Source: Actinomucor elegans
Taxonomy: Eukaryota > Mucoromycota > Mucoromycetes > Mucorales > Mucoraceae
Length of the DNA stretch: 64,000 nt
Reading direction: 5' to 3'
Assembly: GCA_026027325.1 (NCBI GenBank)
Contig: JAMSLZ010000016.1
Coordinates: forward strand, 372,001 to 436,000
In this document: positions 1 through 17,712 of the stretch, piece by piece
Numbering within the stretch: the stretch's first letter is position 1
How the letters are laid out: each line of letters begins with the position of its first letter
Program-made: the position numbers and the translations under genes
The notes under the pieces: generated by a model
Database searches by the model: none
What the model saw: only the letters and a program-made list of their open reading frames with translations
Told to the model about the DNA's origin: nothing

Positions 1-437
1 ACGTAGGTAAAACCTTGTGGGCCTTGGGCTTCTGCGGTCTTGAATACACGGGCTGCAGCAATGCGTTTCTTCAGCGAAACAGGACCAGAATTCTTACTCT
101 TTTGGCGAGTAGGAGCAGCAGCAACAGAAGCAAATGTGGGTTTAGTCACTTTTACTTCAGGGGAGACTTGACAATTGACCAATGGCTGATCAACATTGGC
201 AATGGGATTCGAGATTTGGGACTTGAGCTTCGAGATCTCGGTACGTAATTGCTGATTTTCATCAGCAAGAGCTTGTTTTTCTGACTGTAAGGTCTGAATC
301 GCGTCTTTCAAAGCCTGAAGCTCTTGAAAGACGGTTTGGTGTTGTTGCACTTGTTGAACGACAGAAAAGACCATTTGCTGCAATTGCATTTGGTCAATTA
401 GGCCAGATGGCTCAGAGGCATGTTGAACATTGGACAT
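1..437 (-). CDS. LINE ORF1 protein, N-terminal part
   Basis: The frame opens at the ATG ending at 437 (MSNVQHASEPSG) and runs off the window. It is nearly identical to the first ~145 residues of the complete ORF1 at 15048-15992. The Gln-rich N-terminus and following heptad-like stretch look like a coiled coil. A basic Ala/Val-rich segment comes next, then SLKKRIAAARVFKTAEAQGP. In LINEs of this kind ORF1 encodes an RNA-binding nucleoprotein partner of ORF2. That role is family knowledge; no CCHC knuckle is visible in the part present. Confidence 0.8.
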   Translation of the reverse strand, partial: MSNVQHASEPSGLIDQMQLQQMVFSVVQQVQQHQTVFQELQALKDAIQTLQSEKQALADENQQLRTEISKLKSQISNPIANVDQPLVNCQVSPEVKVTKPTFASVAAAPTRQKSKNSGPVSLKKRIAAARVFKTAEAQGPQGFTY

Positions 438-625
438 TTCGAAATGGCAAAAACTTCAAGATGTCGAAAACTTGATGGAATGTTCTGAAAAAAAAACTGC
501 AGATAGTACTCGGCGAGGCGAAGATGGATGTGCAATTTTTATAGATGGATGTATTGTAGTTGTTGAGATATTCGGCTTTGAAAAAGTGGATTTTTGAAAA
601 AAGTTTTCAAAAGCGAAAGAAGAGT
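1..625 (-). mobile_element. LINE L1, 5' part, cut by window edge
   Basis: This is the 5' part of a non-LTR retrotransposon that reads leftwards out of the window. It has a 5' UTR of about 190 bp (438-625) followed by the start of ORF1. The 5' UTR is nearly identical to those of L3 and L4 (for example 9618-9806 and 15993-16180). Its first bases abut the junction motif at 626-640, as in the other full-length copies. The rest of the element lies beyond position 1, so the array continues to the left. Confidence 0.85.
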
Positions 626-640
626 GGGGATGTAGCTCAG
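626..640 (+). repeat. tRNA-Ala 5'-end motif at LINE junction J1
   Basis: GGGGATGTAGCTCAG lies exactly between the 5' end of L1 and the 3' end of L2. The first 14 bases equal the first 14 bases of the tRNA-Ala gene at 17640. No anticodon or T arm follows, so this is a target-site copy, not a tRNA gene. Confidence 0.9.
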
Positions 641-1102
641 TTTAAAGATTTTGTTTATTGATAGTATTCTATATGCATTCGCTCTATGGAGCATTTAGTT
701 GCAATACCAGGAGCAAAGCAGCAAAAAGTCTATATTATAGGTTGTACAATAAATCCTAAGCTCCTAATGGAGGTTTAGACCAAACTATAAAAAGACAACA
801 AAAAACTACGGGAAAGAAAAGAAGAACATAAAAAAGATGAAAGATGAGAAGCAGCAGAAGATTGGGGGTGGGAACTGTTCACATGGGGAACACCTCGACA
901 GACACACCGCAGCCAAACCAAAAGACATACACCAACATCCGGGAATCCACAAAAAAAGCAAGAAAAAAAGGAGAGAACAAGAAGCAAAAGCAAACAGCGT
1001 TGGAAAGGGTACTAGGACCAGAAGAAAAGAAAGATCAAGAGAGAGAGGGAGAGAGAAAAAGGAAAACGACTAAAGCGGCAAGCAAGAGAAAAAACGGGGG
1101 AA

Positions 1103-2488
1103 TTACTCGGTCATCATCTCCGCTTCTTCCACTTGAGAGACAGTCGGAGAGGGGACGCGAGACAACAGAGACGCAGTTTCCTTGTCATGATGAAGGAGAT
1201 AGCTTAGATAGCACAAGCGCTGTTTCCTTGCTAACCTCTTTTCATCAGAGGGTGGACTTGAGGAGGAGCTGGTGGGACCAGGAGGAGAAGAAGCAGAGCG
1301 GGCAGCGAGTTCTTCAGCCAAAATGGAATCGAATTGCTTTTGGTTTATTCGCTCTTTTTCAAGAAACGAACGAGCAACAGAGACACGAAGAGGACGACGG
1401 ACAAACGAGACAGCACGGAGACAACGAAGGTTTTCAACCTCGCGAGCCTTTTGGACTCGCAAGTCACCAGAAAGAGAAGCAAACTTGGGATCCTTGAGGT
1501 TGGCAGGGTCGTAAGGATCAAAATCCAGGCAAGGGGAACCACCACGGCCATTGGCATGCATAGCTGTAGTAAATTCAAGTGTATAGTCGTTATGCAACAG
1601 GAACGAAACAACACGACTTGTAGGATATTGTATATCCAGAATGCGAGAGTTGTTCAAGCCAATGGCCTGAAGGGACTGACGCAGTTCTTTCAACGGGCGG
1701 CGAACAGAGGTAGAGTAGTACACAAACTGATATCCTGGAGGGATACCAGTGTTAGGGCCAAAGAGGCGAGCAATTGTGGCGGCAGCACGGCGAGGTGGTG
1801 GAAGCAAAGTCTTCTTTTTTGGTTTCTTGCTGCACACATTGGTGGCAGCAACAGAAGCATAGCTAGCTGTTGACTTACCAACAACAGCAGCACCAGAAGA
1901 AGGAAGAGGAAGAGCAACAGCCTTGGCGGTGATTTTAGCATTTTTAGGGGCCAAAAGAGAGGCAACTTGAGCTTCGAGAGCTCGGCGAGCAGATTCAGAT
2001 TCTGCAAGAGCCTTTTGCAGTCGAAAGATTTCGCTATAAGCGTCTTCAAGTCGACTCAAACGCTGATTGACCTCTTGCATGAATGGTTGTAATGCTGATT
2101 GATCCACAATACCGGTCATTTTGGTGGTAGTGGGAGCAGTAGCTGGTGAAAAATCCAAACTGAAGGCTGGTGGTGTCTGTAGTTTGGTTGGCTTGAGGTG
2201 TGAGTAGCTGGTCGACGTTTTTTTAAGTGAAAATAAATCGGCTTGAAAAAGAGGTGGTGAAAGCGATGAAAACTGCCTTTTAACACCCAATGAAAAAAAT
2301 TCAGCGTGCTTTTGGGGCGGAGAGGAAGGTTCTGACAAAGTTTGAACTTGATCGGAAGAGATGATGTTGCGATCTTGCTTCGTAATGTTTTCACAATGGA
2401 GAGATGGCGAAATCGGACAAATGTGTTCAGAATTTGACGAGATTTTGTCAGATGAAGGAGATGAAGACACAGAAATGTTGGCCAGCAC
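1103..2488 (-). CDS. LINE ORF1-like protein, divergent subfamily
   Basis: This frame of 461 codons is longer than the 314-residue ORF1 at 15048-15992 but laid out similarly. It has a Ser-rich N-terminal extension of about 120 residues, a coiled-coil-like stretch around residues 130-180 (VNQRLSRLEDAYSEIFRLQK), and an Ala-rich linker with SYASVAA. A conserved globular part follows (GYQFVYYSTSVRRPLKELRQ, SRILDIQYPTSRVV), and then the shared element FDPYDPANLKDPKFASLSGD, which matches FDPLDPAHLADPRYDSLS in the other ORF1. The C-terminus is Ser/Pro rich. The likely role is RNA binding in a LINE particle. It ends at a TAA not followed by an overlapping ATG, unlike L3 and L4. An open plus-strand frame at 844-1497 is its antisense shadow. 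Confidence 0.75.
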   Translation of the reverse strand: MLANISVSSSPSSDKISSNSEHICPISPSLHCENITKQDRNIISSDQVQTLSEPSSPPQKHAEFFSLGVKRQFSSLSPPLFQADLFSLKKTSTSYSHLKPTKLQTPPAFSLDFSPATAPTTTKMTGIVDQSALQPFMQEVNQRLSRLEDAYSEIFRLQKALAESESARRALEAQVASLLAPKNAKITAKAVALPLPSSGAAVVGKSTASYASVAATNVCSKKPKKKTLLPPPRRAAATIARLFGPNTGIPPGYQFVYYSTSVRRPLKELRQSLQAIGLNNSRILDIQYPTSRVVSFLLHNDYTLEFTTAMHANGRGGSPCLDFDPYDPANLKDPKFASLSGDLRVQKAREVENLRCLRAVSFVRRPLRVSVARSFLEKERINQKQFDSILAEELAARSASSPPGPTSSSSSPPSDEKRLARKQRLCYLSYLLHHDKETASLLSRVPSPTVSQVEEAEMMTE

Positions 2489-2598
2489 TGTTTTGATAGA
2501 TTGGTTATTAGTTTTGCTGAGGTTAGTCGTGTTTAAACTGCTTAAAAAAATTTTTCACTACAACAAGTGTAAAAAAATTTGGTTAGCGGAAGAAGAGT

Positions 2599-2613
2599 GG
2601 GGATGTAGCTCAG
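2599..2613 (+). repeat. tRNA-Ala 5'-end motif at LINE junction J2
   Basis: GGGGATGTAGCTCAG separates the 5' end of L2 (AGAAGAGT just left of it) from the 3' end of L3. Sequence and position match the other junctions. Confidence 0.9.
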
Positions 2614-2926
2614 TTTAAAGATTATATTTTATTAATAAGTAGTTATATGGGCAAACTCTATAGAGCATCTAGCCTAACTATATGAAAAGTGTTTAAAATA
2701 AACATAGAAAAAAGTATAAAAAACCCTGAGACCCACAAGGGAGAAAAAGGTTGAAGACAAGATAGAGATGCAGAGGATTACTGTAAGACTGAATGATCCA
2801 AAAGACATGCCAACAGCTGGGAACTTTGATAATCACTTACCACTGCGGCAGCGCAGTTGGAAGACAAGCAGCTTAGTTCATCGGTAGCCAAGAAGTCGCG
2901 AAGAACGTAGTAGCCATCAAGGCCTA

Positions 2927-5900
2927 CTAGACAGAAGGAGCGAAGAACCAGGCATCACCAGGATCTGGATCTGGAGCGATAGCAGCAAGAGGATGACACA
3001 GCGTGTCAATCACATAGAGAACCTCAAGGAGTGCAGACCAGAAAGACGGTGGACCATTGGATGCTTTCAAGGGCAACAAGTTCAGGGCATGATCAATGCG
3101 ATTGACATCTGGCGGAGCAGCAGGTAATTGGCACAGAAGGCGAGGGTCAATGCCACGGCAATTGAACACAAAGTGATCTCGAGAGAGCCGGCAACCAGTG
3201 AAACAAGGACACAATTCATCACGGTTAGCGAAACGGCCTAACCGCCATCGAACAAGACGACTGCGAGCAGCGCGAGTCATAGGCAGGTACAGTATTGGAT
3301 CAGGCTTTGAAGTAGAGGGCCGACAAGCACGCAAAAGAACCGATTTACCAGTGTGAGCAGCAGCAGCCATTTGCTTGTCAAAGAGATCTTGCCAGTAGCC
3401 AGAGAACCAGGACTTGAGACGAGAGGCTGTAGGTACAGGATTGGGCAATGCCATATACATAGGATTGAGGTATAGAAGCTTGTTCAATCGAGTGTAGCCA
3501 AGACCAGAAGGAGAATTGTCTCGAGAAGAGTTCAGCAATGATATCAAGCAATCATCAGGAAGCCATTGCGATCGTAGGGCATACTTGGTAACCAGGACAT
3601 TGTATCGATGCTTCATGGAAGGGATACAAGTGATGTGCTTCGTGACATTGAACCATCGGGAGCCAACAAACATACCAACTAACCGGTTCTGAAGGTTATC
3701 CAAAGCAGTAAAGTCAGCAGCAGAGAGCCTAGATATAGCAAGACCGTACTCAAACTTGGGCCGAATGAAGGTAGTATATAACCGAGAACAGAGCAAGAGA
3801 GAGAAACCATTGCGGTTGACACCAACCGAATTCAGTAGAGCCATGGTTTTGACTGCACCACCAGACCGTTTAGCCAAGATACCTGGACCATCAAGACCTT
3901 TCTTGTTGAATGGCATACCAAGATACGTGAACTCATTCACTGCAGGCAGAGGAACATCATAGAGACTCAGTCTAAAGTTGGTAGACGTAGAGGAGGTCAC
4001 AGAAGGAGCGTTCAGGACAGCACACTTGGTAGGATTCCAACGATAGCCCAGTACTCTTGAATGGTCAGCAGCTAGGTTCAACATATTTTGCACCTCATGT
4101 TTGGAGCCAAAGATTGCCACATCGTCGGCAAACAGAAGACAGTTAATGGCCACAGCCTCAGCAGATCCAGGAGGAGACACCACAGCAGTAGTATCCGAAG
4201 CTTCAGACCGAAGGGGCTCAGGCAAGGAGTTGATGTATAAAGAATACAAGTGAGGACTCAACACCGAGCCTTGGAGTACACCAGTGGCAGGGGAGAAAGA
4301 GGAAGAGATGTGGTTGGCAATCAACACGGAGATGGATACATCATCAAATAGATTGACCAGCAGACCAAGGAGAGGCCGAGGCAGAGATGAATTCTCAAGA
4401 GCATTCCAGATCACACATCGATCAACAGTGTCATAGGCAGCCTTAATATCCAGAAAAGCAACAACAGGATAGTGGTGATGAACCAAGAAGTAGTTGTGCA
4501 TCAGGTCGTGCAGACAGAGGGCTTGATCCAAAGGACTACGCATGGGACGGAAGCCACCTTGTGCGAGATCTAGAGGAGGCGAATGGTCATAGACGCTTTG
4601 TGCAATGGTAATCTCAAACAACTTACGCATCACCGAAGTCAAAGAAATTGGCCTGTAGTTGGCAGGATCAGAAGCATCACCTTTCTTGAAGATAGGAAAA
4701 ACCTGGGCTTGACGCCATAGAACCGGTGTATAGCACCATTGGTAACAAACCTGGAATAGCAAAGAGAGAACAGGAGCAAGTAAATCACCAGCAGCCTTGA
4801 GCATTTCAGCTTTTAGATGATCAGGACCAGGAGCTTTGCGATTCGGCAACTGTTTGATACGCTCAATCAAGGTGTCCACCGAGAAAATCCAAGACACTTC
4901 TTCATCAGACACCAGGAAAGGCACTTCTAAACCAAAGTCAGGAGCAGCCAGGGGACGAGAAGCAGTCGACAAAAGAGAACCATCATACACTGTAGCCAGG
5001 TGTGTAGCCATAGAATCGACTGATGCTTGAGGGCCATCAGGATGAGCATACGTAGCAGAGGTTTCTTTCCGGCGTTTCAGCCTAGACATGGTAGCAGTGG
5101 CCTTGGCAAAGTCTTTTTGGAGTGACATGCAAAAGTTCTTCCAGGAGAGTCTTTTTGCAGCAGCAACAGCACGACGAAACGACTTGTGAGCTTGCAGATG
5201 GAGATGCCAGTAGTAAGCCTTGTCAACACCAAATGAATGACGCCAACGGCAATAGAGGCGATCACGTTCTCGAGCAGCAGCTTCCAGATCAGCAGTCCAG
5301 TACTTCTTCCAATGACCAGGACGGGGAGCCTTAGACCCAATGGATTCATCCATCGCCTGATAGAGACACTCATTCAGAGATGTATTGAGTGAATCTATAG
5401 GTGGACGACTATCCGGAGGAGAACCAACCAGACCCGCAAGAGTATCCTTCAAAGGAGCAACCAGACACCGAAACCGAGTATGGAACAGAGCCAAAGGCTC
5501 AGACTCAGCCAGCCGACTGAGGTTCCATGTCCTACGAGGAGCCAGCACCGAAGAGTCACCTACACCAGAAGAGCCACCAGAAACAGCAATGTACCTGAAT
5601 CTCAATTGCAGCAGACGATGATCCGAGCCCAGAGATAGATCAGAAGCCACAGAAAGAGAAGGAGATACCATACCAGAACCACCAATGTTGGTCAAGAACA
5701 AATCAATGATACTGCTCGCCACAGCACCATTTCTAAAGGTACAGTATGTATCAATACCATACGCCAAGGAAGCATTCAACACTGACAGATTGCGTTCTTC
5801 AATCCAAGGAAGTAGAGCTTGACCACGAGGATTTGTTGCAGAATCACCAGTAACATCACCAAGGCGTGCATTGAAATCACCGCAGATAATACTATCAGAG

Positions 5901-6316
5901 TGCAGAGGCAGTGAGTTGAGAGAAGAGAGCACCAGATCACGAGAGAGACTGGGTGGAAAGTAGACACAATGCACATTGACTTTGTCAACCTTGATCGACA
6001 GAGTATATGCATTGTAAGACGGAAGTTGAGAGACAGTAAAAGGACAGTGAGGAGAGATGAGAGCAGTGACACCACCTGAGCCACGTCCATTGGCATTAGT
6101 GACAGTTTGACCGTACAGATGATATTGAGACCAATCGGTAGGGATCAACCCAGAGGTAAGCCAAGTTTCAGTAATCAAGAGGATATCACAAGAGAGAGCA
6201 TGAGAGAGTACATCATGGATAGTAGTGACCCGAAGGCCATTGGCATTCCACAGTGCAAGAGAAAAGGAGCGGACGGGGGTATCAGAAGGAGTGAAAGGAG
6301 GGACTGAAGATGTCAT
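2927..6316 (-). CDS. LINE ORF2: APE-type endonuclease and reverse transcriptase
   Basis: This intact 1129-residue protein nicks target DNA and reverse-transcribes the LINE RNA at the nick. Residues ~18-240 are an exonuclease-endonuclease-phosphatase domain: WNANGL (23-28), TETW (Glu50), GDFNAR (Asp147, Asn149), SIIDLFLTN and SDH (231-233). The RT spans roughly 490-740: NYRPISLT, AQGGFRP, FLDIKAAYDTV, GVLQGSVLSP and the catalytic FADD (729-732). Near the C-terminus a CPCFTGCRLSRDHFVFNC Cys/His motif is typical of LINE ORF2. The start ATG overlaps the ORF1 stop as TAATG, suggesting coupled termination and re-initiation. No frameshift is seen, so this copy could supply active enzyme. Confidence 0.93.
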   Translation of the reverse strand: MTSSVPPFTPSDTPVRSFSLALWNANGLRVTTIHDVLSHALSCDILLITETWLTSGLIPTDWSQYHLYGQTVTNANGRGSGGVTALISPHCPFTVSQLPSYNAYTLSIKVDKVNVHCVYFPPSLSRDLVLSSLNSLPLHSDSIICGDFNARLGDVTGDSATNPRGQALLPWIEERNLSVLNASLAYGIDTYCTFRNGAVASSIIDLFLTNIGGSGMVSPSLSVASDLSLGSDHRLLQLRFRYIAVSGGSSGVGDSSVLAPRRTWNLSRLAESEPLALFHTRFRCLVAPLKDTLAGLVGSPPDSRPPIDSLNTSLNECLYQAMDESIGSKAPRPGHWKKYWTADLEAAARERDRLYCRWRHSFGVDKAYYWHLHLQAHKSFRRAVAAAKRLSWKNFCMSLQKDFAKATATMSRLKRRKETSATYAHPDGPQASVDSMATHLATVYDGSLLSTASRPLAAPDFGLEVPFLVSDEEVSWIFSVDTLIERIKQLPNRKAPGPDHLKAEMLKAAGDLLAPVLSLLFQVCYQWCYTPVLWRQAQVFPIFKKGDASDPANYRPISLTSVMRKLFEITIAQSVYDHSPPLDLAQGGFRPMRSPLDQALCLHDLMHNYFLVHHHYPVVAFLDIKAAYDTVDRCVIWNALENSSLPRPLLGLLVNLFDDVSISVLIANHISSSFSPATGVLQGSVLSPHLYSLYINSLPEPLRSEASDTTAVVSPPGSAEAVAINCLLFADDVAIFGSKHEVQNMLNLAADHSRVLGYRWNPTKCAVLNAPSVTSSTSTNFRLSLYDVPLPAVNEFTYLGMPFNKKGLDGPGILAKRSGGAVKTMALLNSVGVNRNGFSLLLCSRLYTTFIRPKFEYGLAISRLSAADFTALDNLQNRLVGMFVGSRWFNVTKHITCIPSMKHRYNVLVTKYALRSQWLPDDCLISLLNSSRDNSPSGLGYTRLNKLLYLNPMYMALPNPVPTASRLKSWFSGYWQDLFDKQMAAAAHTGKSVLLRACRPSTSKPDPILYLPMTRAARSRLVRWRLGRFANRDELCPCFTGCRLSRDHFVFNCRGIDPRLLCQLPAAPPDVNRIDHALNLLPLKASNGPPSFWSALLEVLYVIDTLCHPLAAIAPDPDPGDAWFFAPSV

Positions 6317-6679
6317 TATTGTGACATTTCAGTATCGCTATCACCTGTAACGTCTTCACCAGATGGCAAAGCGCCAGAACTACGGAATGCAAAAGCAGCC
6401 TTCTTGGGATCCTTTTCGGCAAGACGAGAGCGAGCTTCCTTAATGGCTTGATCAAGATCACCATCATCAATCCATCCAAGTTCCACAAAGGAGCGACCAA
6501 CAGAAGGGACCATCACTGGTCGAATGAACGCCAGAGTGCTGATACAGCGAGAGTGAACGAGGTTAGCCATCTCGTTTTCACGAGCATTGGCTGAGAGAGA
6601 AGCATACTTGGGGTCAGCAAGATGGGCTGGGTTTAAAGGATCAAAATCCTTAATGAACTCAGCTTCAGCCGTAGTCATA
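6316..6679 (-). pseudogene. LINE L3 ORF1, 3' part after transposon insertion
   Basis: This is the C-terminal ~120 codons of ORF1 (TAEAEFIKDFDPLNPAHLADP ... DSDTEMSQ). They match the end of the intact ORF1 at 15048-15992. Reading is interrupted at 6679/6680 by a DNA transposon; the matching N-terminal part resumes at 9022. The stop codon overlaps the ORF2 ATG. Confidence 0.9.
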
Positions 6680-6911
6680 GACGGATATCTACAATTAATA
6701 TATCTTTTAAATCTATTGTATATGTCCTATTTTTTTTTAATATATCCATATATTTTATAATTTATAACTTTTTTTCATGAATTAAAATTATTATTAAGTA
6801 TAATAAACATTATCAAGAAGGCAACTGTTCCATTTTGCATGAAAAAGCAATATTATATTTATGCTTTCTCCTAATATACGTACCAAATTTATATGAAACA
6901 AGATGTCCGTC
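6680..6911 (+). repeat. Left 232-bp direct terminal repeat
   Basis: It begins GACGGATATCTAC and ends GATGTCCGTC, so the repeat is itself bounded by short inverted repeats. It is repeated in the same orientation at 8788-9018, 55007-55237 and 57113-57344. Inside is a stem-forming AAGGCA/ATTTATGC-like segment. Confidence 0.93.
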
Positions 6912-6932
6912 TTCTATAACATTTTAAATTAG

Positions 6933-8405
6933 TTACTTACTATTCCAATATATATTAATACAATCAAAACTATTAAATTTACTGTAATGTATCCATGAAT
7001 TATCCTCATCACTGTAGTTTTGCCATTTCACAAGGTAATAACTATCTTCGACTATTAACCCTTTATGATCCAAAATAGTTTCAATTTCATAACTTTCATT
7101 ATTATCTATATCTATTTCCAAGTCCATTTTCTCATTATTATAAATATTATTATTTTTAAAATGAGCAATATTTGATAATTCTAATCCTAAAAATTGTTGC
7201 TGTAATAATTTCATTTTATCTAAATTGTTTATTCTTTCATTTAACTTTGGAAGTGATTTATAATTTTCATTATTATTCAAAATATCATTTTTGTATTTAA
7301 AATCAAAGCTATCATTAATCCAATATGAATGAAAATCACTATGTTCTATATTGTTTAGTTTAATATATTTTTTTAAATTAAAAAGGACACATGCAATTTT
7401 TAGTTGAATATTATATATATTTATATTAGTAGTTAAAAAAGGTTTTTTGTTATTTAATCTTTTAAAGATACATCCCAAATCTGAGAAAGTTTTTTCCATT
7501 TTAGACCGAAAACTTCCAAATTGATCGTTATAATTTATTTCAATTTCATTTAAGTTTATATTTTTATCTTTTCTGATAGGATATACGAAGTTATAGTCAT
7601 TTAGATCAGAACTATTTATTATATTATCTACGTATAGGCTATATCCTCCATCTAATGCAATACAATCCATCAAATTTAGTTTATTTTCAATATTCATATT
7701 TATAAGCATAGATCCATCATTATTAGTACTACATGGTTGACTGTCTGATACAAATAATACCATACCATTTGTATCTATTGCAACTTGTGTTCTAAACCCA
7801 TTTTTTTTAAGTTTGTAACTATAATATATGGATTTATCTTCTGCACCATATACCATACCTCTTTTATCATGGCCGTCTAAATGTATTGTTACTTGATTAA
7901 ACAAATCTGGATTCTCTATCATTCCATTTAAAAGTCTAATTTTTATATTTGAAAACATGTTTTGTAAAGAAAAACTTAAAATCTTATTTAATTTTAACAT
8001 TCTATCTGATGAATAAAATTGTCTGTATATTTGATGAAAAGTACTTTTTGATATATAATCATCCATATCTTCAATTGATATATTCTCTACTATAAAATAT
8101 AATATCAATAAGCCTTTTTCTATATTATTATATGGTCCTCTATAATCTCTATCTCCAAATAATATAACTAGGAAGAAATAAACAGGTATTATTCCTAACT
8201 TTTCTAATAAAATCTTTTTAATTTCTTTGATCTTTTTAATAGATATAATCTTTTTAGTGTGATATTTTTTTTGTTCAATCTCTGGCCAACCATAATTTAA
8301 AAATTTCCAATAATCATTTGTTAGAATCTGATACTCCATTAATAAAGTATCCTTAACATTATTAATATTATCCATTTGTTCTTTTTTATATTGAGATAAA
8401 TTCAA
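6933..8405 (-). CDS. DDE transposase (DDE_Tnp_4-like) with C-terminal chromodomain
   Basis: This is an intact 490-residue, very AT-rich protein. It has a helical N-terminal region (1-170), then catalytic-type motifs: LDGHDKR (Asp177), DSQPCSTNNDGSM (221-233), LDGGYSLY (Asp252) and SFRSKMEKTFSDLG (Glu304). This D-D-E pattern is that of IS5/PIF/Harbinger transposases. Residues ~432-490 (ETILDHKGLIVEDSYYLVKW ... WIHYSKF ... INIYW) form a chromodomain resembling those at the ends of the two Ty3 integrases in this window. It could direct the transposase to modified histones. A DDE protein with a chromodomain tail is unusual. The start ATG is followed by MNLSQYKKEQ; no alternative upstream start is evident. 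Confidence 0.85.
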   Translation of the reverse strand: MNLSQYKKEQMDNINNVKDTLLMEYQILTNDYWKFLNYGWPEIEQKKYHTKKIISIKKIKEIKKILLEKLGIIPVYFFLVILFGDRDYRGPYNNIEKGLLILYFIVENISIEDMDDYISKSTFHQIYRQFYSSDRMLKLNKILSFSLQNMFSNIKIRLLNGMIENPDLFNQVTIHLDGHDKRGMVYGAEDKSIYYSYKLKKNGFRTQVAIDTNGMVLFVSDSQPCSTNNDGSMLINMNIENKLNLMDCIALDGGYSLYVDNIINSSDLNDYNFVYPIRKDKNINLNEIEINYNDQFGSFRSKMEKTFSDLGCIFKRLNNKKPFLTTNINIYNIQLKIACVLFNLKKYIKLNNIEHSDFHSYWINDSFDFKYKNDILNNNENYKSLPKLNERINNLDKMKLLQQQFLGLELSNIAHFKNNNIYNNEKMDLEIDIDNNESYEIETILDHKGLIVEDSYYLVKWQNYSDEDNSWIHYSKFNSFDCINIYWNSK

Positions 8406-8787
8406 TTTTTTATAACTTAAAATAAAATTAATAATAATATATATACATTATTATGTTTTAGAAAACATTTTTTATTTTGAAAAGTTTGAAGTAATTCTAA
8501 AATTTATTAATTTTATATTTTGCTTAGTCAGCAAAATTGTAAAATCAATTATTTTTTTTGAACTTTTTATTAATAGACAGATTTATAAATATTTTGTGTT
8601 ACACAAAATATAATAAATCCTAATTGTTTTAAAGAAATAGAAAATATAAAAAGTTCACAAATTGTGAACATTTTTAATTTTCATGGAATGACAAACAAAT
8701 TGATAATTTGAAAAGAATTGTAGTGTTAAGCTGATTTTATAATTCAGAATTTTATAGCAACAGAAACATTTCTCTATGGTTATAGTA

Positions 8788-9018: not shown

Positions 9019-9021
9019 ATA

Positions 9022-9617
9022 AGCTCGGTAAACTTTTCAACATACTGCGTATGTATCAGGACACCAAGGACACCAGTAGCAGGGAAACAGACATCTAACA
9101 CACGACCAGTGTCAACACCAGCGCGACGTAACCGAGAGCGGACTTCAGTACGGTCAAGTTTGCGAGATCGACCAAGATAAACATAGGTAAAACCCTGAGG
9201 ACCCTGGGCCTCAAGGGTTTTGAAGGCGCGAGCAGCGGCTATACGTTTCTTTAGGGAAACGGCAGCAGGGCGAGAGGGGCGGCTGTCCTTTTTTACAGCG
9301 GCTGCAGCAATGGCAGCGAAAGACCGGGCACCATTTTTTTCCTGGGCGGGAGAAGCGACATTCTGCGGTGGACTACGAGCGGTGGCAGCAGAGAGTTGTG
9401 CTCGAAGTTGGTTATTTTCATTAACCAAAGCCTGGTTTTCGGTTTTGAGTCCAAGAATCTCATTTTTCAAGGTCTGGAGCTCTTCAAATAATGTTTGATG
9501 TTGTTGCACTTGCTGAACAAGTGAAAACACCATTTGCTGTAGCTGCTGGAACTGCATTGGCTGTTGCATTTGGTCCATTGAGCCAGATGGCTCCGATGCA
9601 TGTTGAACATTGGACAT
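9022..9617 (-). pseudogene. LINE L3 ORF1, 5' part
   Basis: This is the N-terminal ~199 codons of ORF1, starting MSNVQHASEPSGSMDQ. It has a Gln-rich coiled-coil-like stretch (residues ~15-75), an Ala-rich linker, SLKKRIAAARAFKTLEAQGP, and GFTYVYLGRSRKLDRTEVRS, reaching EKFTELMT before the transposon. It is clearly diverged from the L1 and L4 ORF1 N-termini, so L3 belongs to a slightly different subfamily. Confidence 0.9.
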
Positions 9618-9806
9618 TTCGAAATGGAGAAAAATTCAAGATGTCGAAAACTTGATGGAATGTTCTGAAAAAAAAAACTGCAGATAGTACTTGGCAAGGC
9701 GAAGATGGATGTGCAATTTTTATAGATGGATGTATAGTAGTTGTTGAGATATTCGGCTTTGAAAAAGTGGATTTTTGAAAAAAGTTTTCAAAAGCGAAAG
9801 AAGAGT

Positions 9807-9821
9807 GGGGATGTAGCTCAG
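9807..9821 (+). repeat. tRNA-Ala 5'-end motif at LINE junction J3
   Basis: GGGGATGTAGCTCAG between the 5' end of L3 and the 3' end of L4; flanks match those at J2 and J4. Confidence 0.9.
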
Positions 9822-10134
9822 TTTAAAGATTATATTTTATTAATAAGTAGTTATATGGGCAAACTCTATAGAGCATCTAGCCTAACTATATGAAAAGTGT
9901 TTAAAATAAACATAGAAAAAAGTATAAAAAACCCTGAGACCCACAAGGGAGAAAAAGGTTGAAGACAAGATAGAGATGCAGAGGATTACTGTAAGACTGA
10001 ATGATCCAAAAGACATGCCAACAGCTGGGAACTTTGATAATCACTTACCACTGCGGCAGCGCAGTTGGAAGACAAGCAGCTTAGTTCATCGGTAGCCAAG
10101 AAGTCGCGAAGAACGTAGTAGCCATCAAGGCCTA

Positions 10135-12942
10135 CTAGACAGAAGGAGCGAAGAACCAGGCATCACCAGGATCTGGATCTGAAGCGATAGCAGCAAGAGG
10201 ATGACACAGCGTGTCAATCACATAGAGAACCTCAAGGAGTGCAGACCAGAAAGACGGTGGACCATTGGATGCTTTCAAGGGCAACAAGTTCAGGGCATGA
10301 TCAATGCGATTGACATCTGGCGGAGCAGCAGGTAATTGGCACAGAAGGCGAGGATCAATGCCACGGCAATTGAACACAAAGTGATCTCGAGAGAGCCGGC
10401 AACCAGTGAAACAAGGACACAATTCATCACGGTTAGCGAAACGGCCTAACCGCCATCGAACAAGACGACTGCGAGCAGCACGAGTCATAGGCAGGTACAG
10501 TATTGGATCAGGCTTTGAAGTAGAGGGCCGACAAGCACGCAAAAGAACCGATTTACCAGTGTGAGCAGCAGCAGCCATTTGCTTGTCAAAGAGATCTTGC
10601 CAGTAGCCAGAGAACCAGGACTTGAGACGAGAGGCTGTAGGTACAGGATTGGGCAATGCCATATACATAGGATTGAGATATAGAAGCTTGTTCAATCGAG
10701 TGTAGCCAAGACCAGAAGGAGAATTGTCTCGAGAAGAGTTCAGCAAGGATATCAAGCAATCATCAGGAAGCCATTGCGATCGTAGGGCATACTTGGTAAC
10801 CAGGACATTGTATCGATGCTTCATGGAAGGGATACAAGTGATGTGCTTCGTGACATTGAACCATCGGGAGCCAACAAACATACCAACTAACCGGTTCTGA
10901 AGGTTATCCAAAGCAGTAAAGTCAGCAGCAGAGAGCCTAGATATAGCAAGACCGTACTCAAACTTGGGCCGAATGAAGGTAGTATATAACCGAGAACAGA
11001 GCAAGAGAGAGAAGCCATTGCGGTTGACACCAACCGAATTCAGTAGAGCCATGGTTTTGACAGCACCACCAGACCGTTTAGCCAGGATACCCGGACCATC
11101 AAGACCTTTCTTGTTGAATGGCATACCAAGATACGTGAACTCGTTCACTGCAGGCAGAGGAACATCATAGAGACTCAGTCTAAAGTTGGTAGACGTAGAG
11201 GAGGTCACAGAGGGAGCGTTCAGGACAGCACACTTGGTAGGATTCCAACGATAGCCCAGTACTCTTGAATGATCAGCAGCTAAATTCAACATATTTTGCA
11301 CCTCATGTTTGGAGCCAAAGATTGCCACATCGTCGGCAAACAGAAGACAGTTAATGGCCACAGCCTCAGCAGATCCAGGAGGAGACACCACAGCAGTAGT
11401 ATCCGAAGCTTCAGACCGAAGGAGCTCAGGCAAGGAGTTGATGTACAAAGAGTACAAGTGAGGACTCAACACCGAGCCTTGGAGTACACCAGTGGCAGGG
11501 GAGAAAGAGGAAGAGATGTGGTTGGCAATCAATACGGAGATGGATACATCATCAAATAGATTGACCAGCAGACCAAGGAGAGGCCGAGGCAGAGATGAAT
11601 TCTCAAGAGCATTCCAGATCACACATCGATCAACAGTGTCATAGGCAGCCTTAATATCCAGAAAAGCAACAACAGGATAGTGGTGATGAACCAAGAAGTA
11701 GTTGTGCATCAGGTCGTGCAGACAGAGGGCTTGATCCAGAGGACTACGCATGGGACGGAAGCCACCTTGTGCGAGATCTAGAGAAGGCGAATGGTCATAG
11801 ACGCTTTGTGCAATGGTAATCTCAAACAACTTACGCATCACCGAAGTCAAAGAAATTGGCCTGTAGTTGGCAGGATCAGAAGCATCACCTTTCTTGAAGA
11901 TAGGAAAGACCTGAGCTTGACGCCATAGAACCGGTGTATAGCACCATTGGTAACAAACCTGGAATAGCAAAGAAAGAACAGGAGCAAGTAAATCACCAGC
12001 AGCCTTGAGCATTTCAGCTTTTAGATGATCAGGACCAGGAGCTTTGCGATTCGGCAACTGTTTGATATGCTCAACCAAGGTTTCCACCGAGAAAATCCAA
12101 GACACTTCTTCATCAGACACCAGGAAAGGCACTTCTAAACCAAAGTCAGGAGCAGCCAGGGGACGAGAAGCAGTCGACAAAAGAGAACCATCATACACTG
12201 TAGCCAGGTGTGTAGCCATAGAATCGACTGATGCTTGAGGGCCATCAGGATGAGCATACGTAGCAGAGGTTTCTTTCCGGCGTTTCAGCCTAGACATGGT
12301 AGCAGTGGCCTTGGCAAAGTCCTTTTGGAGTGACATGCAAAAGTTTTTCCAGGAGAGCCTTTTTGCAGTAGCAACAGCACGACGAAACGACTTGTGAGCT
12401 TGCAGATGAAGATGCCAGTAATAAGCCTTGTCAACACCAAATGAATGACGCCAACGGCAATAGAGGCGATCACGTTCTCGAGCAGCAGCTTCCAGATCAG
12501 CAGTCCAGTACTTCTTCCAATGACCAGGACGGGGAGCCTTAGACCCAATGGATTCATCCATCGCCTGATAGAGACACTCATTCAGAGATGCATTGAGTGA
12601 ATCTATAGATGGACGAGTATCCGGAGGAGAACCAACCAGACCAGCAAGAGTATCCTTCAAGGGAGCAACCAGACACCGAAACCGAGTATGGAACAGAGCC
12701 AAAGGCTCAGACTCAGCCAGCCGACTGAGGTTCCATGTCCTACGAGGGGCCAGCACCGAAGAGTCACCTACACCAGAAGAGCCACCAGAATCAGCAATGT
12801 ATTTGAACCCCAACTGAAGCAGACGATGATCCGAGCCCAGAGACAGATCGGATGCCACAGAAAGAGAAGCAGATACCATACCAGAACCACCAATGTTGGT
12901 CAAGAACAAGTCAATGATACTGCTCGCCACAGCACCATTTCT
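10135..12942 (-). pseudogene. LINE L4 ORF2, RT and C-terminal part
   Basis: It carries the end of the endonuclease domain (SIIDLFLTN, SDHRLLQL), the whole RT with FLDIKAAYDTV and FADD, and the C-terminal CPCFTGCRLSRDHFVFNC motif. It is nearly identical to L3 ORF2. The frame upstream of residue ~200 is interrupted by the element at 12943-14440, with CCATTTCT duplicated on both sides. Confidence 0.92.
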
Positions 12943-14440
12943 GGATGTATCCCAAAGGAACTCCCAGGTTTTTAAAAATGTCCGAGATGGATAAAATAAA
13001 TAAAATACATTTTGATTTTTAATCAAAAAATTATTATTTCATTTGGAGAATTCCTTAAATATATTATTTTAAATAAATTGAATTTTTATATAAATAAAAA
13101 AAAAGACAATCTAAAAAATTAAAAATAATTGCAGTTGTTAATAAAATGGAAACTTTTGAAGAATTAATTGAAAAAAGTGATTTTATAAAAAATATTAAAA
13201 GAATGTATATAACGAAAGTGATTGAAAACTATAATATAGAAAAGGTTAATATAGTATATAATAACAATATTAAATCGTTTGAAATTAATTTCATAAAAAA
13301 TGAAAATCCCTACTATATTAAATATAAAATTAAAAGACGAAGAAATCAATCTACACCAAAGTTAAATAAAAAAGCAAAAAAAGTAAACATAAATGATAAT
13401 ATAAATGCTGATTCTTTTATTGGTAATATAGTAAATAATAATATAATTGAAAATAGTATAGAAATTAATGATAATATAATTAAAAGTAGTACACAGGATA
13501 GTAGTAATGATAATGTCATAAATGTAAAAAATGATGGTTTAGACAACATCAAAAAGAATAAAGTAATATATAAAAATGTTAATGATAATCCGTCGGATAC
13601 AAATAAATTAAACCATAATAGTATAGAAAAATTTAAGCATATAAGAAGAAATATGGTAAGTCAAATAGAAGAATTATTGGAACTTACTGTACATAGTAAC
13701 GATTTATTAGTTGATGTATTCCATATTATAAATAATAACAATCCTAAAATGGCGATAAAAAAGTTAAATAAGTATAATAGTAATAATAATTATAAATTTA
13801 TCCAAGAATTACCTTCCAGATTAAATACAATAAATGATAAACTAATAGAATTAATAGATGAATTAATTGTATAATAAATTAAGAATAGATAAAAAGGTAT
13901 AAAATTTAGAATAATATAATTAAAAACTATTTTAAAATATTTAAATAATAATTACATAAATAAAAATGAAATTTCCATAACAACATATCATATATTCTAT
14001 AATATCACAATCAAATCTGAAGTATGTCAAGAATCTTCCGCAAAACTAAATAAAATTTATGATGAATTAATAAAAATCGATAGATAAAAGTTTTAAGATC
14101 TAAAAATATGAAAATTTTATATTTCTAGAAACATTAATGTAGATAATATATATTATCAACAAGTTGATTTTATAAATCATGGAGCCACCTCAATATATTT
14201 ACTTACATTTTCTAAAAACTTCATAAATAAAGTTATCATAAAATTATTTCAAATTACAAAAATAACAATATTTATAAATGTTTATAAGTATTAAATTATC
14301 CATTTCGTACAACAATATAAAGAACCATTCATATAATAATTATGTTTTATATATCAAAAAATAGACATTATTTTTAAAAGTTTTAAAATTTTTGTACGAA
14401 ATGGATAATAAAAACCTGAGACCTAGATTGGGAATTACCC
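12943..14440 (+). mobile_element. Merlin/IS1595-like cargo element, copy 1
   Basis: This 1498-bp element is flanked by an exact 8-bp duplication CCATTTCT (12935-12942 and 14441-14448). Its ends are imperfect inverted repeats of ~35 bp: GGATGTATCCC at the left and GGGAATTACCC at the right, each with a CTCAGG/CCCAGG plus GTTTTTA block inside. The same ends bound 28812-31193, which encodes an IS1595-type transposase. An 8-bp duplication fits Merlin. No transposase is present; the only ORF is at 13146-13874. Confidence 0.85.
13146..13874 (+). CDS. Accessory protein of Merlin-like element, unknown function
   Basis: This intact 242-codon frame is extremely AT-rich (Asn, Ile, Lys). It has a basic N-terminal region (residues 1-75, IKYKIKRRRNQSTPKLNKK), a low-complexity Asn-rich middle (80-160), and a helical C-terminal part (HIRRNMVSQIEELLELTVHS ... 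INDKLIELIDELIV). No family is recognised. The layout resembles the 98-residue protein at 29297-29593 of the transposase-bearing relative: M-acidic start, IKR..I.K, then a basic tail. A second, frameshifted copy is at 39054-39781. It may be a DNA-binding helper; that is inference. AT-rich chance ORFs are possible, but conservation across copies argues against chance. Confidence 0.65.
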   Translation: METFEELIEKSDFIKNIKRMYITKVIENYNIEKVNIVYNNNIKSFEINFIKNENPYYIKYKIKRRRNQSTPKLNKKAKKVNINDNINADSFIGNIVNNNIIENSIEINDNIIKSSTQDSSNDNVINVKNDGLDNIKKNKVIYKNVNDNPSDTNKLNHNSIEKFKHIRRNMVSQIEELLELTVHSNDLLVDVFHIINNNNPKMAIKKLNKYNSNNNYKFIQELPSRLNTINDKLIELIDELIV

Positions 14441-15048
14441 CCATTTCTAAAGGTACAGTATGTATCAATACCATACGCCAAGGAAGAGTTCAACACTGAG
14501 AGATTGCGTTCTTCAATCCAAGGAAGCAGAGCTAGACCGCGAGGATTTGTTGCAGAATCACCAGTAACATCACCAAGGCGTGCATTAAAGTCACCGCAGA
14601 TAATAGTATCAGAGTGCAGAGGCAGTGAATTCAGAGAAGAGAGCACCAGATCACGAGAGAGACTGGGTGGAAAGTAGACACAATGCACATTGACTTTGTC
14701 AACCTTGATCGACAGAGTATATGCATTGTAAGACGGAAGTTGAGAGACAGTAAAAGGACAGTGAGGAGAAATGAGAGCAGTGACACCACCTGAGCCACGT
14801 CCATTGGCATTAGTGACAGTTTGACCGTACAGATGATATTGAGACCAATCGGTAGGGATCAACCCAGAGGTAAGCCAAGTTTCAGTAATCAAGAGGATAT
14901 CACAAGAGAGAGCATGAGAGAGTACATCATGGATGGTAGTGACCCGAAGACCATTGGCATTCCACAATGCAAGAGAGAAGGAGCGGACAGGATTGTTCAA
15001 AGGAGTGACAGGAGTAGCAGAAATGAAAGGAGGGACTGAAGATGTCAT
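14441..15048 (-). pseudogene. LINE L4 ORF2, endonuclease N-terminal part
   Basis: It begins at the ATG overlapping the ORF1 stop (TAATG). It has WNANGL, TETW and GDFNAR up to YGIDTYCTFRNG, where the cargo element interrupts it; downstream codons to 14383 are inside the insertion. The N-terminus is slightly longer than in L3 (an extra ISATPVTPLN-type stretch). Confidence 0.92.
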
Positions 15049-15992
15049 TATTGTGACATTTCAGTATCGCTATCACCAGAGATGTCTTTACCAGAACGAC
15101 GGAAAGCAAAAGCAGCCTTCTTGGGATCTTGTTCAGCAAGCCGGCGACGAGCATCCACCATGGCATGGTCGAGAGTTTCATCATCCATCCATCCTTTCTC
15201 AACAAAGGAGCGGCCAACAGAGGAGACAAGCAAGGGACGTACAAAAGACAAGGTATTGATGCATCGAGAGTGGACAATCTTGGCCATTTCATTAGCCCTA
15301 GCATCCAGTGAAAGAGAGTCATAGCGTGGATCAGCTAAATGGGCAGGGTCCAAAGGATCAAAATCCTTGATAAATTCGGCTTCGGCAATAGTCATAAGCT
15401 CAGTGAACCTGTCTACATACTGAGTATGTAACAAGATACCAATGACACCAGAGGCGGGGAAACAGACATCAATCACACGGCCAGTATCAACACCAGCACG
15501 ACGGAGACGCGACCGGACTTCCAACCGGTCAAACTTGCGCGAACGGCCAAGGTACACGTAGGTAAAACCTTGTGGGCCCTGGGCTTCTGCGGTCTTGAAC
15601 ACACGGGCTGCAGCAATGCGTTTCTTCAGCGAAACAGAACCAGAATTCTTACTCTTTTGGCGAGTAGGAGCAGCGGTAACAGAAGCAAATGTGGGTTTAG
15701 CCACTTTTACTTCAGGGGAGACTTGAGAATTAACCAATGGTTGATCAACATTGGCAATGGGATTCGAGATTTTGGACATGAGCTTTGAGATCTCGGTACG
15801 TAATTGCTGGTTTTCATCAGCAAGGGCTTGTTTTTCTGACTGTAAGGTTTGAATCGTGTCTTTCAAAGCTTGAAGCTCTTGGAAAGCAGTTTGGTGTTGT
15901 TGCACTTGTTGAACGACAGAAAAGACCATTTGCTGCAATTGCATTTGGTCAATTAGGCCAGATGGCTCAGAGGCATGTTGAACATTGGACAT
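15048..15992 (-). CDS. LINE ORF1 protein, intact
   Basis: This complete 314-residue ORF1 is the reference for the broken copies. Residues 1-75 are Gln-rich with heptad-like Leu/Ile spacing, predicted to multimerise. A linker with SVTAAPTRQKSKNSG follows, then a conserved block SLKKRIAAARVFKTAEAQGP and FTYVYLGRSRKFDRLEVRSR, and VCFPASGVIGILLHTQYVDRF. Next comes FIKDFDPLDPAHLADPRYDS, and a C-terminal region ending DSDTEMSQ. It is expected to coat LINE RNA. The stop overlaps the ORF2 start by one base in TAATG. Confidence 0.88.
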   Translation of the reverse strand: MSNVQHASEPSGLIDQMQLQQMVFSVVQQVQQHQTAFQELQALKDTIQTLQSEKQALADENQQLRTEISKLMSKISNPIANVDQPLVNSQVSPEVKVAKPTFASVTAAPTRQKSKNSGSVSLKKRIAAARVFKTAEAQGPQGFTYVYLGRSRKFDRLEVRSRLRRAGVDTGRVIDVCFPASGVIGILLHTQYVDRFTELMTIAEAEFIKDFDPLDPAHLADPRYDSLSLDARANEMAKIVHSRCINTLSFVRPLLVSSVGRSFVEKGWMDDETLDHAMVDARRRLAEQDPKKAAFAFRRSGKDISGDSDTEMSQ

Positions 15993-16180
15993 TTCGAAAT
16001 GGAGAAAACTTCAAGATGTCGAAAACTTGATGAAATGTTCTGAAAAAAAAACTGCAGATAGTACTCGGCGAGGCGAAGATGGATGTGCAATTTTTATAGA
16101 TGGATGTATAGTAGTTGTTGAGATATTCGGCTTTGAAAAAGTGGATTTTTGAAAAAAGTTTTCAAAAGCGAAAGAAGAGT

Positions 16181-16195
16181 GGGGATGTAGCTCAG
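16181..16195 (+). repeat. tRNA-Ala 5'-end motif at LINE junction J4
   Basis: GGGGATGTAGCTCAG between the 5' end of L4 and the 3' end of truncated copy L5a. Confidence 0.9.
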
Positions 16196-16659
16196 TTTAA
16201 AGATTATATTTTATTAATAAGTAGTTATATGGGCAAACTCTATAGAGCATCTAGCCTAACTATATGAAAAAGTGTTTAATATAAACATAGAAAAAAGTAT
16301 AAAAAACCCTGAGAACCACAAGGGAGAAAAAGGTTAAAGACAAGAGCGAGAACCAGTAGACTATTGCAGCTCTGAGTGATCCAAAAGGCAAGCCAACAGC
16401 TGGGAACTTTGATAATCACTTACCACCGTGGCTGCGCAGTTGAAAGACAAACAGGCTGGTTCATCAATAGAACAGAGAGAAAGAGAGGCTCAATAAACCA
16501 AGGAGAGGTTTATATAGTACGAGTAGCAGCAAACCAGGCATCACCAGGATCTGGATCTGGGACGATAGCAGCAAGAGGATGACACAGCGTGTCAATCACA
16601 TAGAGAATCTCAAGGAGTGCAGACCAGAAAGGCGGTGGACCATTGGATGCTTTCAAGGG
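16181..16659 (-). mobile_element. LINE L5a, 5'-truncated copy
   Basis: This holds only the last ~150 bp of ORF2 and the 3' UTR of a LINE whose tail differs from L3/L4. It is nearly identical to the start of L5b 479 bp further on. Its 5' end breaks off inside ORF2 (GCTTTCAAGGG) directly against the next tRNA motif. That is the expected product of incomplete reverse transcription during target-primed integration. Confidence 0.88.
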
Positions 16660-16674
16660 GGGGATGTAGCTCAG
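16660..16674 (+). repeat. tRNA-Ala 5'-end motif at LINE junction J5
   Basis: GGGGATGTAGCTCAG between the truncated 5' end of L5a and the 3' end of L5b; a run of seven G marks the join. Confidence 0.9.
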
Positions 16675-16988
16675 TTTAAAGATTATATTTTATTAATAAG
16701 TAGTTATATGGGCAAACTCTATAGAGCATCTAGCCTAACTATATGAAAAAGTGTTTAATATAAACATAGAAAAAAGTATAAAAAACCCTGAGAACCACAA
16801 GGGAGAAAAAGGTTAAAGACAAGAGCGAGAACCAGTAGACTATTGCAGCTCTGAGTGATCCAAAAGGCAAGCCAACAGCTGGGAACTTTGATAATCACTT
16901 ACCACCGTGGCTGCGCAGTTGAAAGACAAACAGGCTGGTTCATCAATAGAACAGAGAGAAAGAGAGGCTCAATAAACCAAGGAGAGGT

Positions 16989-17639
16989 TTATATAGTACG
17001 AGTAGCAGCAAACCAGGCATCACCAGGATCTGGATCTGGGACGATAGCAGCAAGAGGATGACACAGCGTGTCAATCACATAGAGAATCTCAAGGAGTGCA
17101 GACCAGAAAGGCGGTGGACCATTGGATGCTTTCAAGGGCAACAAGTTCAGGGCATGATCAATGCGATTGACATCTGGCGGAGCAGCAGGTAATTGGCACA
17201 GAAGGCGAGGATCAATGCCACGGCAATTGAACACAAAGTGATCTCGAGAGAGCCGGCAACCAGTGAAACAAGGACACAATTCATCACGGTTAGCGAAACG
17301 GCCTAAGCGCCATCGAACAAGACGACTGCGAGCAGCGCGAGTCATAGGCAGGTACAGTATTGGATCAGGCTTTGAAGTAGAGGGCCGACAAGCACGCAAA
17401 AGAACCGATTTACCAGTGTGAGCAGCAGCAGCCATTTGCTTGTCAAAGAGGTCTTGCCAGTAGCCAGAGAACCAGGACTTGAGACGAGAGGCTGTAGGTA
17501 CAGGATTGGGCAATGCCATATGCATAGGATTGAGGTATAGGAGCTTGTTCAATCGAGTGTAGCCAAGACCAGAAGGAGAATTGTCTCGAGAAGAGTTCAG
17601 CAATGATATCAAGCAATCATCCGGAAGCCATTGCGACCG
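16989..17639 (-). pseudogene. LINE ORF2 C-terminal fragment
   Basis: This is the last ~217 codons of ORF2, from SQWLPDDCLISLLNSS through the CPCFTGCRLSRDHFVFNC motif to DPGDAWFAATRTI. It ends with a C-terminus different from L3/L4 (FFAPSV). No RT or endonuclease remains. The open frame extending right to 17810 crosses the tRNA and is not coding. Confidence 0.88.
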
Positions 17640-17712
17640 GGGGATGTAGCTCAAATGGTAGAGCGCTCGCTTAGCATGCGAGAGGCACTGGGATCGACGC
17701 CCAGCTTCTCCA
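17640..17712 (+). tRNA. tRNA-Ala (AGC)
   Basis: This is 73 bases with a full cloverleaf: acceptor GGGGATG/CTTCTCC (one T-T mismatch at pair 6), D arm GCTC/GAGC, anticodon arm CTCGC-TTAGCAT-GCGAG giving AGC, T arm CTGGG-ATCGACG-CCCAG, and discriminator A. There is no intron. It is the insertion target of the LINE array to its left; the gene is regenerated because the LINE duplicates its 5' end. Confidence 0.95.

Follow-up and report, generated by a model that had tools for sequence, protein, structure and literature searches.

In its ancestral type, the element R1, which occupies arthropod 28S ribosomal RNA (rRNA) genes, makes 14-bp target duplications and forms tandem arrays separated by those 14 bp (PMC2718515); the arrays are thought to arise via insertion into the duplication (PMC2718515, PMC3414825). 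Its 5′ junctions are variable and its 3′ junctions fixed, non-autonomous elements are mixed into the arrays in one species, and at the highest R1 levels an inserted unit holds on average two to three R1 copies (PMC2718515, PMC3414825). Here we describe long interspersed nuclear elements (LINEs) that appear to behave in a similar way at transfer RNA (tRNA) genes of the fungus Actinomucor elegans. The locus in question is a stretch of 64,000 nucleotides (nt) (assembly GCA_026027325.1, contig JAMSLZ010000016.1, positions 372,001 to 436,000; the whole 64 kb is called the window below), in which an array of LINEs stands against a gene for tRNA-Ala(AGC).

Several other mobile elements are known to use tRNA genes. 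NeSL-1_TV (tRNA-Pro), LIN15_SM (tRNA-Arg) and LIN25_SM (tRNA-Glu) are tRNA-specific non-long terminal repeat (non-LTR) retrotransposons, and the NeSL clade that holds them encodes a restriction-like endonuclease (PMC4640811); the LINEs described here are likewise specific for tRNA genes but carry an endonuclease of the apurinic/apyrimidinic (AP) type at the N-terminus. The L1-type TRE5 and TRE3 elements of Dictyostelium integrate either 40-54 bp upstream of tRNA genes or 40-150 bp downstream of them, TRE5 being targeted through contact with TFIIIB (PMC5911963); ours, unlike them, adjoin nt 1 of the tRNA, with a duplication ending at nt 14, rather than lying 40 bp or more away. Dada DNA transposons, each family of which has its own tRNA or small nuclear RNA gene, use a DDE transposase and make duplications of ~6-7 bp (PMC3706591), whereas the elements considered here are retrotransposons with 14-bp duplications.

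Arrays and fungal hosts also have precedents. Zepp and Zepp-like LINEs of green algae build arrays by insertion into existing copies, and their clusters are centromeric; the cited parts of that report mention no anchor for them, whereas our arrays have a tRNA anchor (PMC8226300). In Mucor, Grem-LINE1 forms pericentric clusters and encodes zinc fingers in open reading frame (ORF) 1 and a zf-RVT domain in ORF2; the word tRNA is absent from the main text of the paper (PMC7377519). The hosts are related, but by Pfam the LINEs at tRNA genes have neither of these domains. For Rhizopus, Ty3-type LTR elements near tRNA genes are described, the cited portion of the text containing no statement on LINEs (PMC2699053).

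A LINE array against a tRNA-Ala gene

The first 14 bases of the tRNA, GGGGATGTAGCTCA, are present exactly at six window positions (626, 2599, 9807, 16181, 16660 and 17640), as was claimed in an earlier note on this DNA. No further window match appears at up to two mismatches; 0.13 matches are expected by chance, and six were reached in 0 of 100 shuffles. The sixth copy is the start of tRNA-Ala(AGC), and the five internal ones form the boundaries between neighbouring elements (Table 1). The unit of 15 bases given in the note has to be shortened to 14, base 15 being A in the tRNA and G, the end of the element, at the junctions. The orientation stands as first described: all window elements, full-length and truncated, end at the 14-mer and lie on the minus strand, opposite to the tRNA, with the 3′ end at the low coordinate, away from it. 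Two families are present, a LINE (family A) and a shorter ORF1-only element (family B); outward from the tRNA they follow as two 5′-truncated A copies, an A copy with split ORF2, an A copy with intact ORF2, a complete B copy and the 5′ end of another A.

Table 1. Features of the array and of the tRNA gene in the window
Feature	Position	Strand	Basis
Family-A LINE, 5′ part, runs on to the left of the window	1..625	-	blastn to reference A 624-1, 95.8%
14-bp target-site duplication (tRNA-Ala nt 1-14)	626..639	+	exact GGGGATGTAGCTCA
Complete family-B element, 1959 bp, non-autonomous, ORF1-like protein only	640..2598	-	
Family-B ORF1-like protein, 338 amino acids (aa) from ATG, open frame 483 aa	1103..2119	-	
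14-bp target-site duplication	2599..2612	+	exact GGGGATGTAGCTCA
Family-A LINE, ORF2 intact, DNA transposon (about 6680-9015) interrupting the ORF1 region	2613..9806	-	
Intact ORF2, predicted AP-type endonuclease and reverse transcriptase, frame 1133 aa	2927..6328	-	Pfam Exo_endo_phos, Exo_endo_phos_2, RVT_1
14-bp target-site duplication	9807..9820	+	exact GGGGATGTAGCTCA
Family-A LINE, insertion (about 12943-14440) within ORF2, uninterrupted ORF1 frame 15048-16010	9821..16180	-	99.7-100% to reference A
14-bp target-site duplication	16181..16194	+	exact GGGGATGTAGCTCA
5′-truncated family-A LINE (reference 4393-4853)	16195..16659	-	blastn to reference A
14-bp target-site duplication	16660..16673	+	exact GGGGATGTAGCTCA
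5′-truncated family-A LINE (reference 3892-4853), adjoins tRNA	16674..17639	-	blastn to reference A
tRNA-Ala(AGC), insertion point between nt 14 and 15	17640..17712	+	ARAGORN, Rfam

The 14-mer across the genome

The genome contains 84 exact copies of GGGGATGTAGCTCA, and a reversed-pattern control gave 0; on these counts, together with the window shuffles, a chance origin of the 14-mers was rejected. The copies consist of 11 tRNA-Ala(AGC) gene starts and 73 element 3′ ends. The 11 genes, found by an exact anticodon-arm pattern, are identical over 73 bases and all begin with the 14-mer (tRNA genes were located by sequence patterns throughout, which genes of variant sequence could escape). Insertions anchored at a tRNA do recur elsewhere: an element adjoins 8 of the 11 genes, with its complete 5′ end at seven and in truncated form at one, that of the window, and the other three genes are empty.

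Nearly all 14-mers outside the tRNA genes (72 of 73) continue directly into GTTTAAAG; in the remaining one GTTTG is followed by a second 14-mer, as if a five-base element remnant had been inserted. A 25-base pattern with three mismatches allowed added one site, where an LTR-type insertion that made a 5-bp duplication interrupts the 14-mer. Viewed from the elements, ends at unrelated sequence, the outcome against which the earlier note had weighed its own proposal, are rare. The 14-mer adjoins 58 of 63 matches in searches with the 3′ untranslated region (UTR) (A 40 of 42, from the best 40 of 58 candidates scored; B 18 of 21) and 69 of 71 matches to a short 3′-end pattern at 0-1 mismatch, the two exceptions being the 14-mer split by the LTR-type insertion and a match at C24:2338706. 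The short pattern matched 92 times in total and its reversed control 25 times; at two mismatches 3 of 21 matches adjoin the 14-mer, and their number is at the level of the reversed control.

On the other side of the 84 sites, the left flanks are 46 complete A 5′ ends, 15 complete B 5′ ends, 13 truncated elements (12 points of truncation) and 10 others: three empty-gene leaders, a single displaced leader and six element ends of other or uncertain type. The displaced leader precedes C27:910101, the last 14-mer of a three-junction array, as TGGTCTTACTACTATAT; the same 17 bases precede the empty gene at C27:1133232. To judge from this identity, it is the original upstream region, displaced 18 kb from its gene and three junctions away.

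Sister LINEs at other tRNA genes

The 14-mer is a true target-site duplication, because one LINE 3′ end carries nt 1-14 of whichever tRNA is local, tRNA-Val in one case and tRNA-Ala(TGC) in the other. A distant LINE, whose ORF1 is 32% identical, adjoins tRNA-Pro(AGG); further copies were located via this Pro-type ORF1, and two of them adjoin tRNA-Val(AAC) (loci L099 and L101). At tRNA-Ala(TGC) (L023) the first 15 bases of a Val-type element adjoin the gene, followed by another insertion. Pattern searches found the tRNA-Val 14-mer at 15 sites (11 genes and 4 others), the tRNA-Pro 14-mer at 7 (5 genes and 2 others) and the tRNA-Ala(TGC) 14-mer at 4 (3 genes and 1 other). One LINE 3′ end recurs at all four non-tRNA Val sites and at the single non-tRNA Ala(TGC) site; the Val-type 3′ ends compared were identical over 60 bases in four cases and over 44 in L110. 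The non-tRNA Pro site C22:2615957 is joined to a Pro-type LINE 3′ end. The register is thus constant, nt 1-14 at four tRNA types (Ala-AGC, Val-AAC, Ala-TGC and Pro-AGG), and the Val and Ala(TGC) comparison upholds what had been proposed from the window alone: the elements insert at a specific site in tRNA-Ala, duplicate the target and leave the tRNA intact.

A further related LINE (ORF1 29% identical) served as control. Its four copies have largely unrelated flanks, and no tRNA was found within the 200-381 bases read at the 5′ end at any of the four loci; therefore, tRNA residence is not general among the LINEs of this genome. An Rfam search of five short loci returned one sub-threshold match only. 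By eye, three of the four control copies (L104, L105 and L106; C22:1339172, C23:1447033 and C1:2450793), otherwise unrelated in their flanks, have a ATTGGYTGKCGGAGA-like motif ~61-63 bp upstream of the 5′ end, perhaps another target rule.

Two 5′ regions were seen to be common to tRNA-Val loci and tRNA-Ala arrays (L112, L110 and L111 versus C14:163791 and C22:2131116); by eye they differ in their first bases, ACTTCTTCTT or ACTTCTCTT versus CTCTTCTT, and the 5′ terminus of an element seems to vary with its target. The 3′ UTR of a Pro-type LINE (L098, C22:2615860-2616040) holds ATGTAGCTCA, equal to 10 of the 14 family-A target bases in tRNA-sense orientation; it could be chance or a relic.

Proposed mechanism

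We consider it very probable that target-primed reverse transcription places these AP-type LINEs at a single, exact position in tRNA genes. A first nick by the endonuclease, midway through the A-box, would fall behind A14 on the tRNA-sense strand; the exposed 3′ OH of ...GGGGATGTAGCTCA would then serve as primer for copying of the element 3′ end, and a cut of the second strand at the first base of the tRNA would yield the 14-bp duplication of nt 1-14. The tRNA would retain nt 1-73, its 5′ leader alone being replaced by the antisense 5′ end of the element. Each insertion would place a fresh 14-bp copy at the far end of the element, and such copies are most likely reused, so that arrays would grow on themselves. 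Read-through transcripts would carry the 14-mer at their 3′ end, by which they could anneal to the nicked target, as has been proposed for R1. Judged from sequence, the register, the duplication length, the orientation, the integrity of the tRNA and the presence of several families on several tRNAs are well established; which strand is nicked first, and how copying is primed, we infer by analogy.

One may go further, to a view on which we are evenly divided: that AP-type LINEs have radiated on the A14/15 bond, with an endonuclease that reads the bases around it, switching between isotypes alike at those bases, autocatalytic arrays independent of the tRNA, family B as a rider and LINE-derived leaders. 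If so, 7 of the 11 tRNA-Ala(AGC) genes found would have an element 5′ end as their upstream leader, and the host's tRNA supply would run from LINE sequence.

A number of points weigh against insertion as set out above. The nick order and priming are drawn from R1 and L1. The unevenness of the arrays has other possible sources, namely unequal crossing-over or genes that differ in accessibility, and some local amplification is likely (the four CCCC junctions on C22; C21:46259 and 46660, with the same truncation point). For 22 of the 73 junctions, no tRNA-Ala was found near the array. The match at C24:2338706 resembles a LINE end, lacks the 14-mer and is known from the pattern alone, and at C24:1873057 (L113) a tRNA-Pro 14-mer has neither tRNA nor LINE adjoining. 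At tRNA-Ala(TGC) the evidence at the gene itself amounts to the 15 element bases ahead of the next insertion. The C5 and C9 junctions at tRNA-Val, alike in their flank, could stem from duplication of a single locus; among the five tRNA-Val genes thought occupied, C5:35191 and C21:357200 were counted without their 5′ side being read, and C22:2413962 was judged only from its element-like 5′ flank. Nine further weak ORF1 matches lie outside the arrays, and other LINEs of this kind may be found at tRNAs or away from them.

Array growth and alternative explanations

We lean towards reuse of internal array copies as targets, a view drawn from the sizes of the arrays. The numbers of junctions per tRNA-Ala gene are 0, 0, 0, 1, 1, 3, 6, 7, 8, 10 and 15 (51 of the 73 junctions), with a variance of 24.9. 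In a self-propagation model, with each 14-mer a target, the mean variance was 23.9, and 24.9 was reached in 37% of runs; the result was unchanged when the four CCCC copies were counted as one. Array 3′ ends are too alike to order the elements by age. The suggestion of the earlier note that array copies become the next target stands to this extent, that the sizes fit; reuse is deduced from them, not seen. It is possible, though doubtful, that only the real tRNA is a target, the 14-mers of the array being dead and older insertions being pushed outward. A full A-box and the RNA polymerase III (Pol III) complex exist at the tRNA only, and the end products of the two processes look alike; equal insertion at the 11 genes, however, gave a mean variance of 4.6 and reached the observed value in 0 of 20000 runs, and the 22 junctions in arrays remote from any tRNA-Ala found also speak against it.

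If the elements were tethered to Pol III factors, as TRE5-A of Dictyostelium is, the endonuclease would not need to read DNA, and the targets found are indeed tRNA genes with the inferred cut within the A-box. We nevertheless regard tethering as unlikely. The position is exact to the base, and internal 14-mers, if used, are not tRNA genes. Moreover, tRNA-Val and tRNA-Ala(TGC), the targets of one family, agree among their first 16 bases at 1, 2, 8 and 10-16, both thus having GTGTA|GT around the cut, which points to an endonuclease that reads the flanking bases. A tRNA-Lys(CTT) gene in the window (46122-46194) has TAGCTCA|A around position 14 like tRNA-Ala(AGC), yet is without an element; because of this one gene, family A needs something beyond TAGCTCA|A.

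The 5′ junctions bear on a third alternative, in which arrays grow mainly through unequal crossing-over with few insertions. No extra base is present at 35 of the 61 complete 5′ junctions; 16 have extras matching the tail of the neighbouring 14-mer (C in 7, CC in 2, CCCC in 4, ATCCCC plus A in 1 and GCTACATCCCC in 2), 5 have other extras (ACT twice, AC, A and G) and 5 fall outside this grouping. The tail-like extras suggest RNAs starting slightly upstream, within the previous duplication. The four CCCC junctions belong to consecutive elements on C22, the last two units being 4872 bases each, and these elements may descend from one; C21:46259 and 46660, too, have one truncation point in common. 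Both cases favour crossing-over, but the 13 truncated 5′ junctions fall at 12 different points, the extra bases at 5′ junctions differ, and A and B copies are interleaved. Taking different truncation points and interleaving as signs of independent insertions, we find crossing-over improbable as the main route.

Blunt insertion just upstream of tRNA-Ala, with the 14-mer belonging to the element 3′ end and no duplication made, would give identical end products if family A alone is considered, including the run of 72 14-mers straight into GTTTAAAG; it is refuted for the Val-type family, whose 3′ end occurs with two distinct 14-mers, in each case that of the local tRNA, and is very improbable overall. 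An assembly artefact is hardly credible, even with some arrays near contig ends (C1, C15, C21 and C25), given eight tRNA-anchored sites that differ in content and three more tRNA types in the same register.

The family-A LINE and its relatives

By its predicted proteins, family A is a non-LTR retrotransposon of the AP-endonuclease type. A complete copy is ~4.85 kb. In the reference copy ORF1 has 314 aa, with weak coiled-coil-type Pfam matches, all under cut-off; ORF2 has 1135 aa, with an N-terminal AP-type endonuclease and a reverse transcriptase (PF14529/PF03372 and PF00078), and no other nuclease domain was found in it (Pfam, E 0.05). The ORF1 stop and the ORF2 start overlap as TAATG. A poly(A) tail is absent, the elements terminating in ...AATCTTTAAAC; 3′ ends are uniform and 5′ ends variable (of the 5′ junctions at the 84 sites, 61 are complete and 13 truncated). 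ORF2 is full length without stop in at least 22 of 45 matches (best 41 of 265 candidates scored).

Named ORF2 relatives with at least 37% identity, among the matches listed, come from Mucor velutinosus (64%), Mucor saturninus (up to 61%), Dichotomocladium, Rhizopus, Cokeromyces, Phycomyces and Umbelopsis; a spider protein is one weak named match (27%) in the same list. The relatives in other fungi are known from proteins alone. A search of viral contigs for relatives with DNA context found none; three contigs from bacterial or archaeal bins, matched in the contig search at 26-28% identity, were not used. The zf-RVT domain (PF13966) and ORF1 zinc fingers were not found in ORF1 and ORF2 of the window (Pfam, E 0.05), nor was zf-RVT in 16 ORF2 relatives (Pfam, E 0.01). 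By eye, ORF2 has a C-terminal Cys/His cluster.

R1 also has an AP-type endonuclease, and structure entries for the R1 and TRAS1 endonucleases exist. In a profile search, L1 ORF2 was covered from endonuclease to reverse transcriptase (E 1.9e-66) and provided the nearest solved relatives; no R1 or TRAS1 endonuclease structure was found among the best 60 of 61 profile matches. The tRNA LINEs resemble R1 in the 14-bp duplication and in tandem arrays separated by it, and differ in that their junctions are at dispersed tRNA genes rather than in 28S rDNA, itself tandem, and in that arrays reach 15 junctions. They appear to work like R1 but on tRNA genes; membership of R1 is not proven. A self-propagated array is therefore not the distinctive lifestyle that it was first taken for, R1 doing likewise in Drosophila 28S genes (PMC2718515). 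What appears to be new is the tRNA register, the use of several tRNAs and the fungal host; no earlier report was found in the open literature (closed-access papers and Repbase being outside the search).

Family B, an ORF1-only element

Family B of the window (1959 bp) has the same first nine bases (ACTCTTCTT) and last eleven bases (AATCTTTAAAC) as family A, and its ORF1 is 28.8% identical to that of A copies (E about 1e-29). Complete B 5′ ends make up 15 of the 84 junction flanks. The reading frame has no premature stop in 8 of 8 readable copies (3 of the 8 span 993-994 of 1017 bases), and the ratio of nonsynonymous to synonymous substitution rates (dN/dS) is <1 in all 27 differing pairs of 28; B is therefore a non-autonomous element keeping its protein. 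Most likely it is moved in trans by family A, whose termini it shares. HAL1 (half-L1) of mammals is likewise an ORF1-only relative of a LINE; family B differs from it in having a strict target site, common to B and its likely autonomous partner.

Implications and other observations

These LINEs would offer a natural series of related endonucleases, apparently cutting different tRNA genes at one position, for the study of sequence choice and of target change. As insertion sites that survive insertion, tRNA genes are relevant to site-specific RNA-templated gene writing. Self-propagation of arrays via their own target duplications, as proposed for R1, becomes testable, and the question is raised how tRNA-Ala(AGC) is transcribed when, at 8 of the 11 genes, a transposon takes up the region upstream.

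At C8:319000-389700 two head-to-head tRNA-Ala genes lie 70 kb apart, with opposed arrays between them that meet near 357-365 kb; a centromere role for these facing arrays would be a guess. In the window, the insertion at 6680-9015 inside a LINE encodes a DDE_Tnp_4 transposase with a C-terminal chromodomain, with a shorter copy at 55603-56730, and by eye the long ORFs at 19936-25038 and 33363-38288 resemble Gag and Pol of Ty3/gypsy type with chromodomain-like ends.

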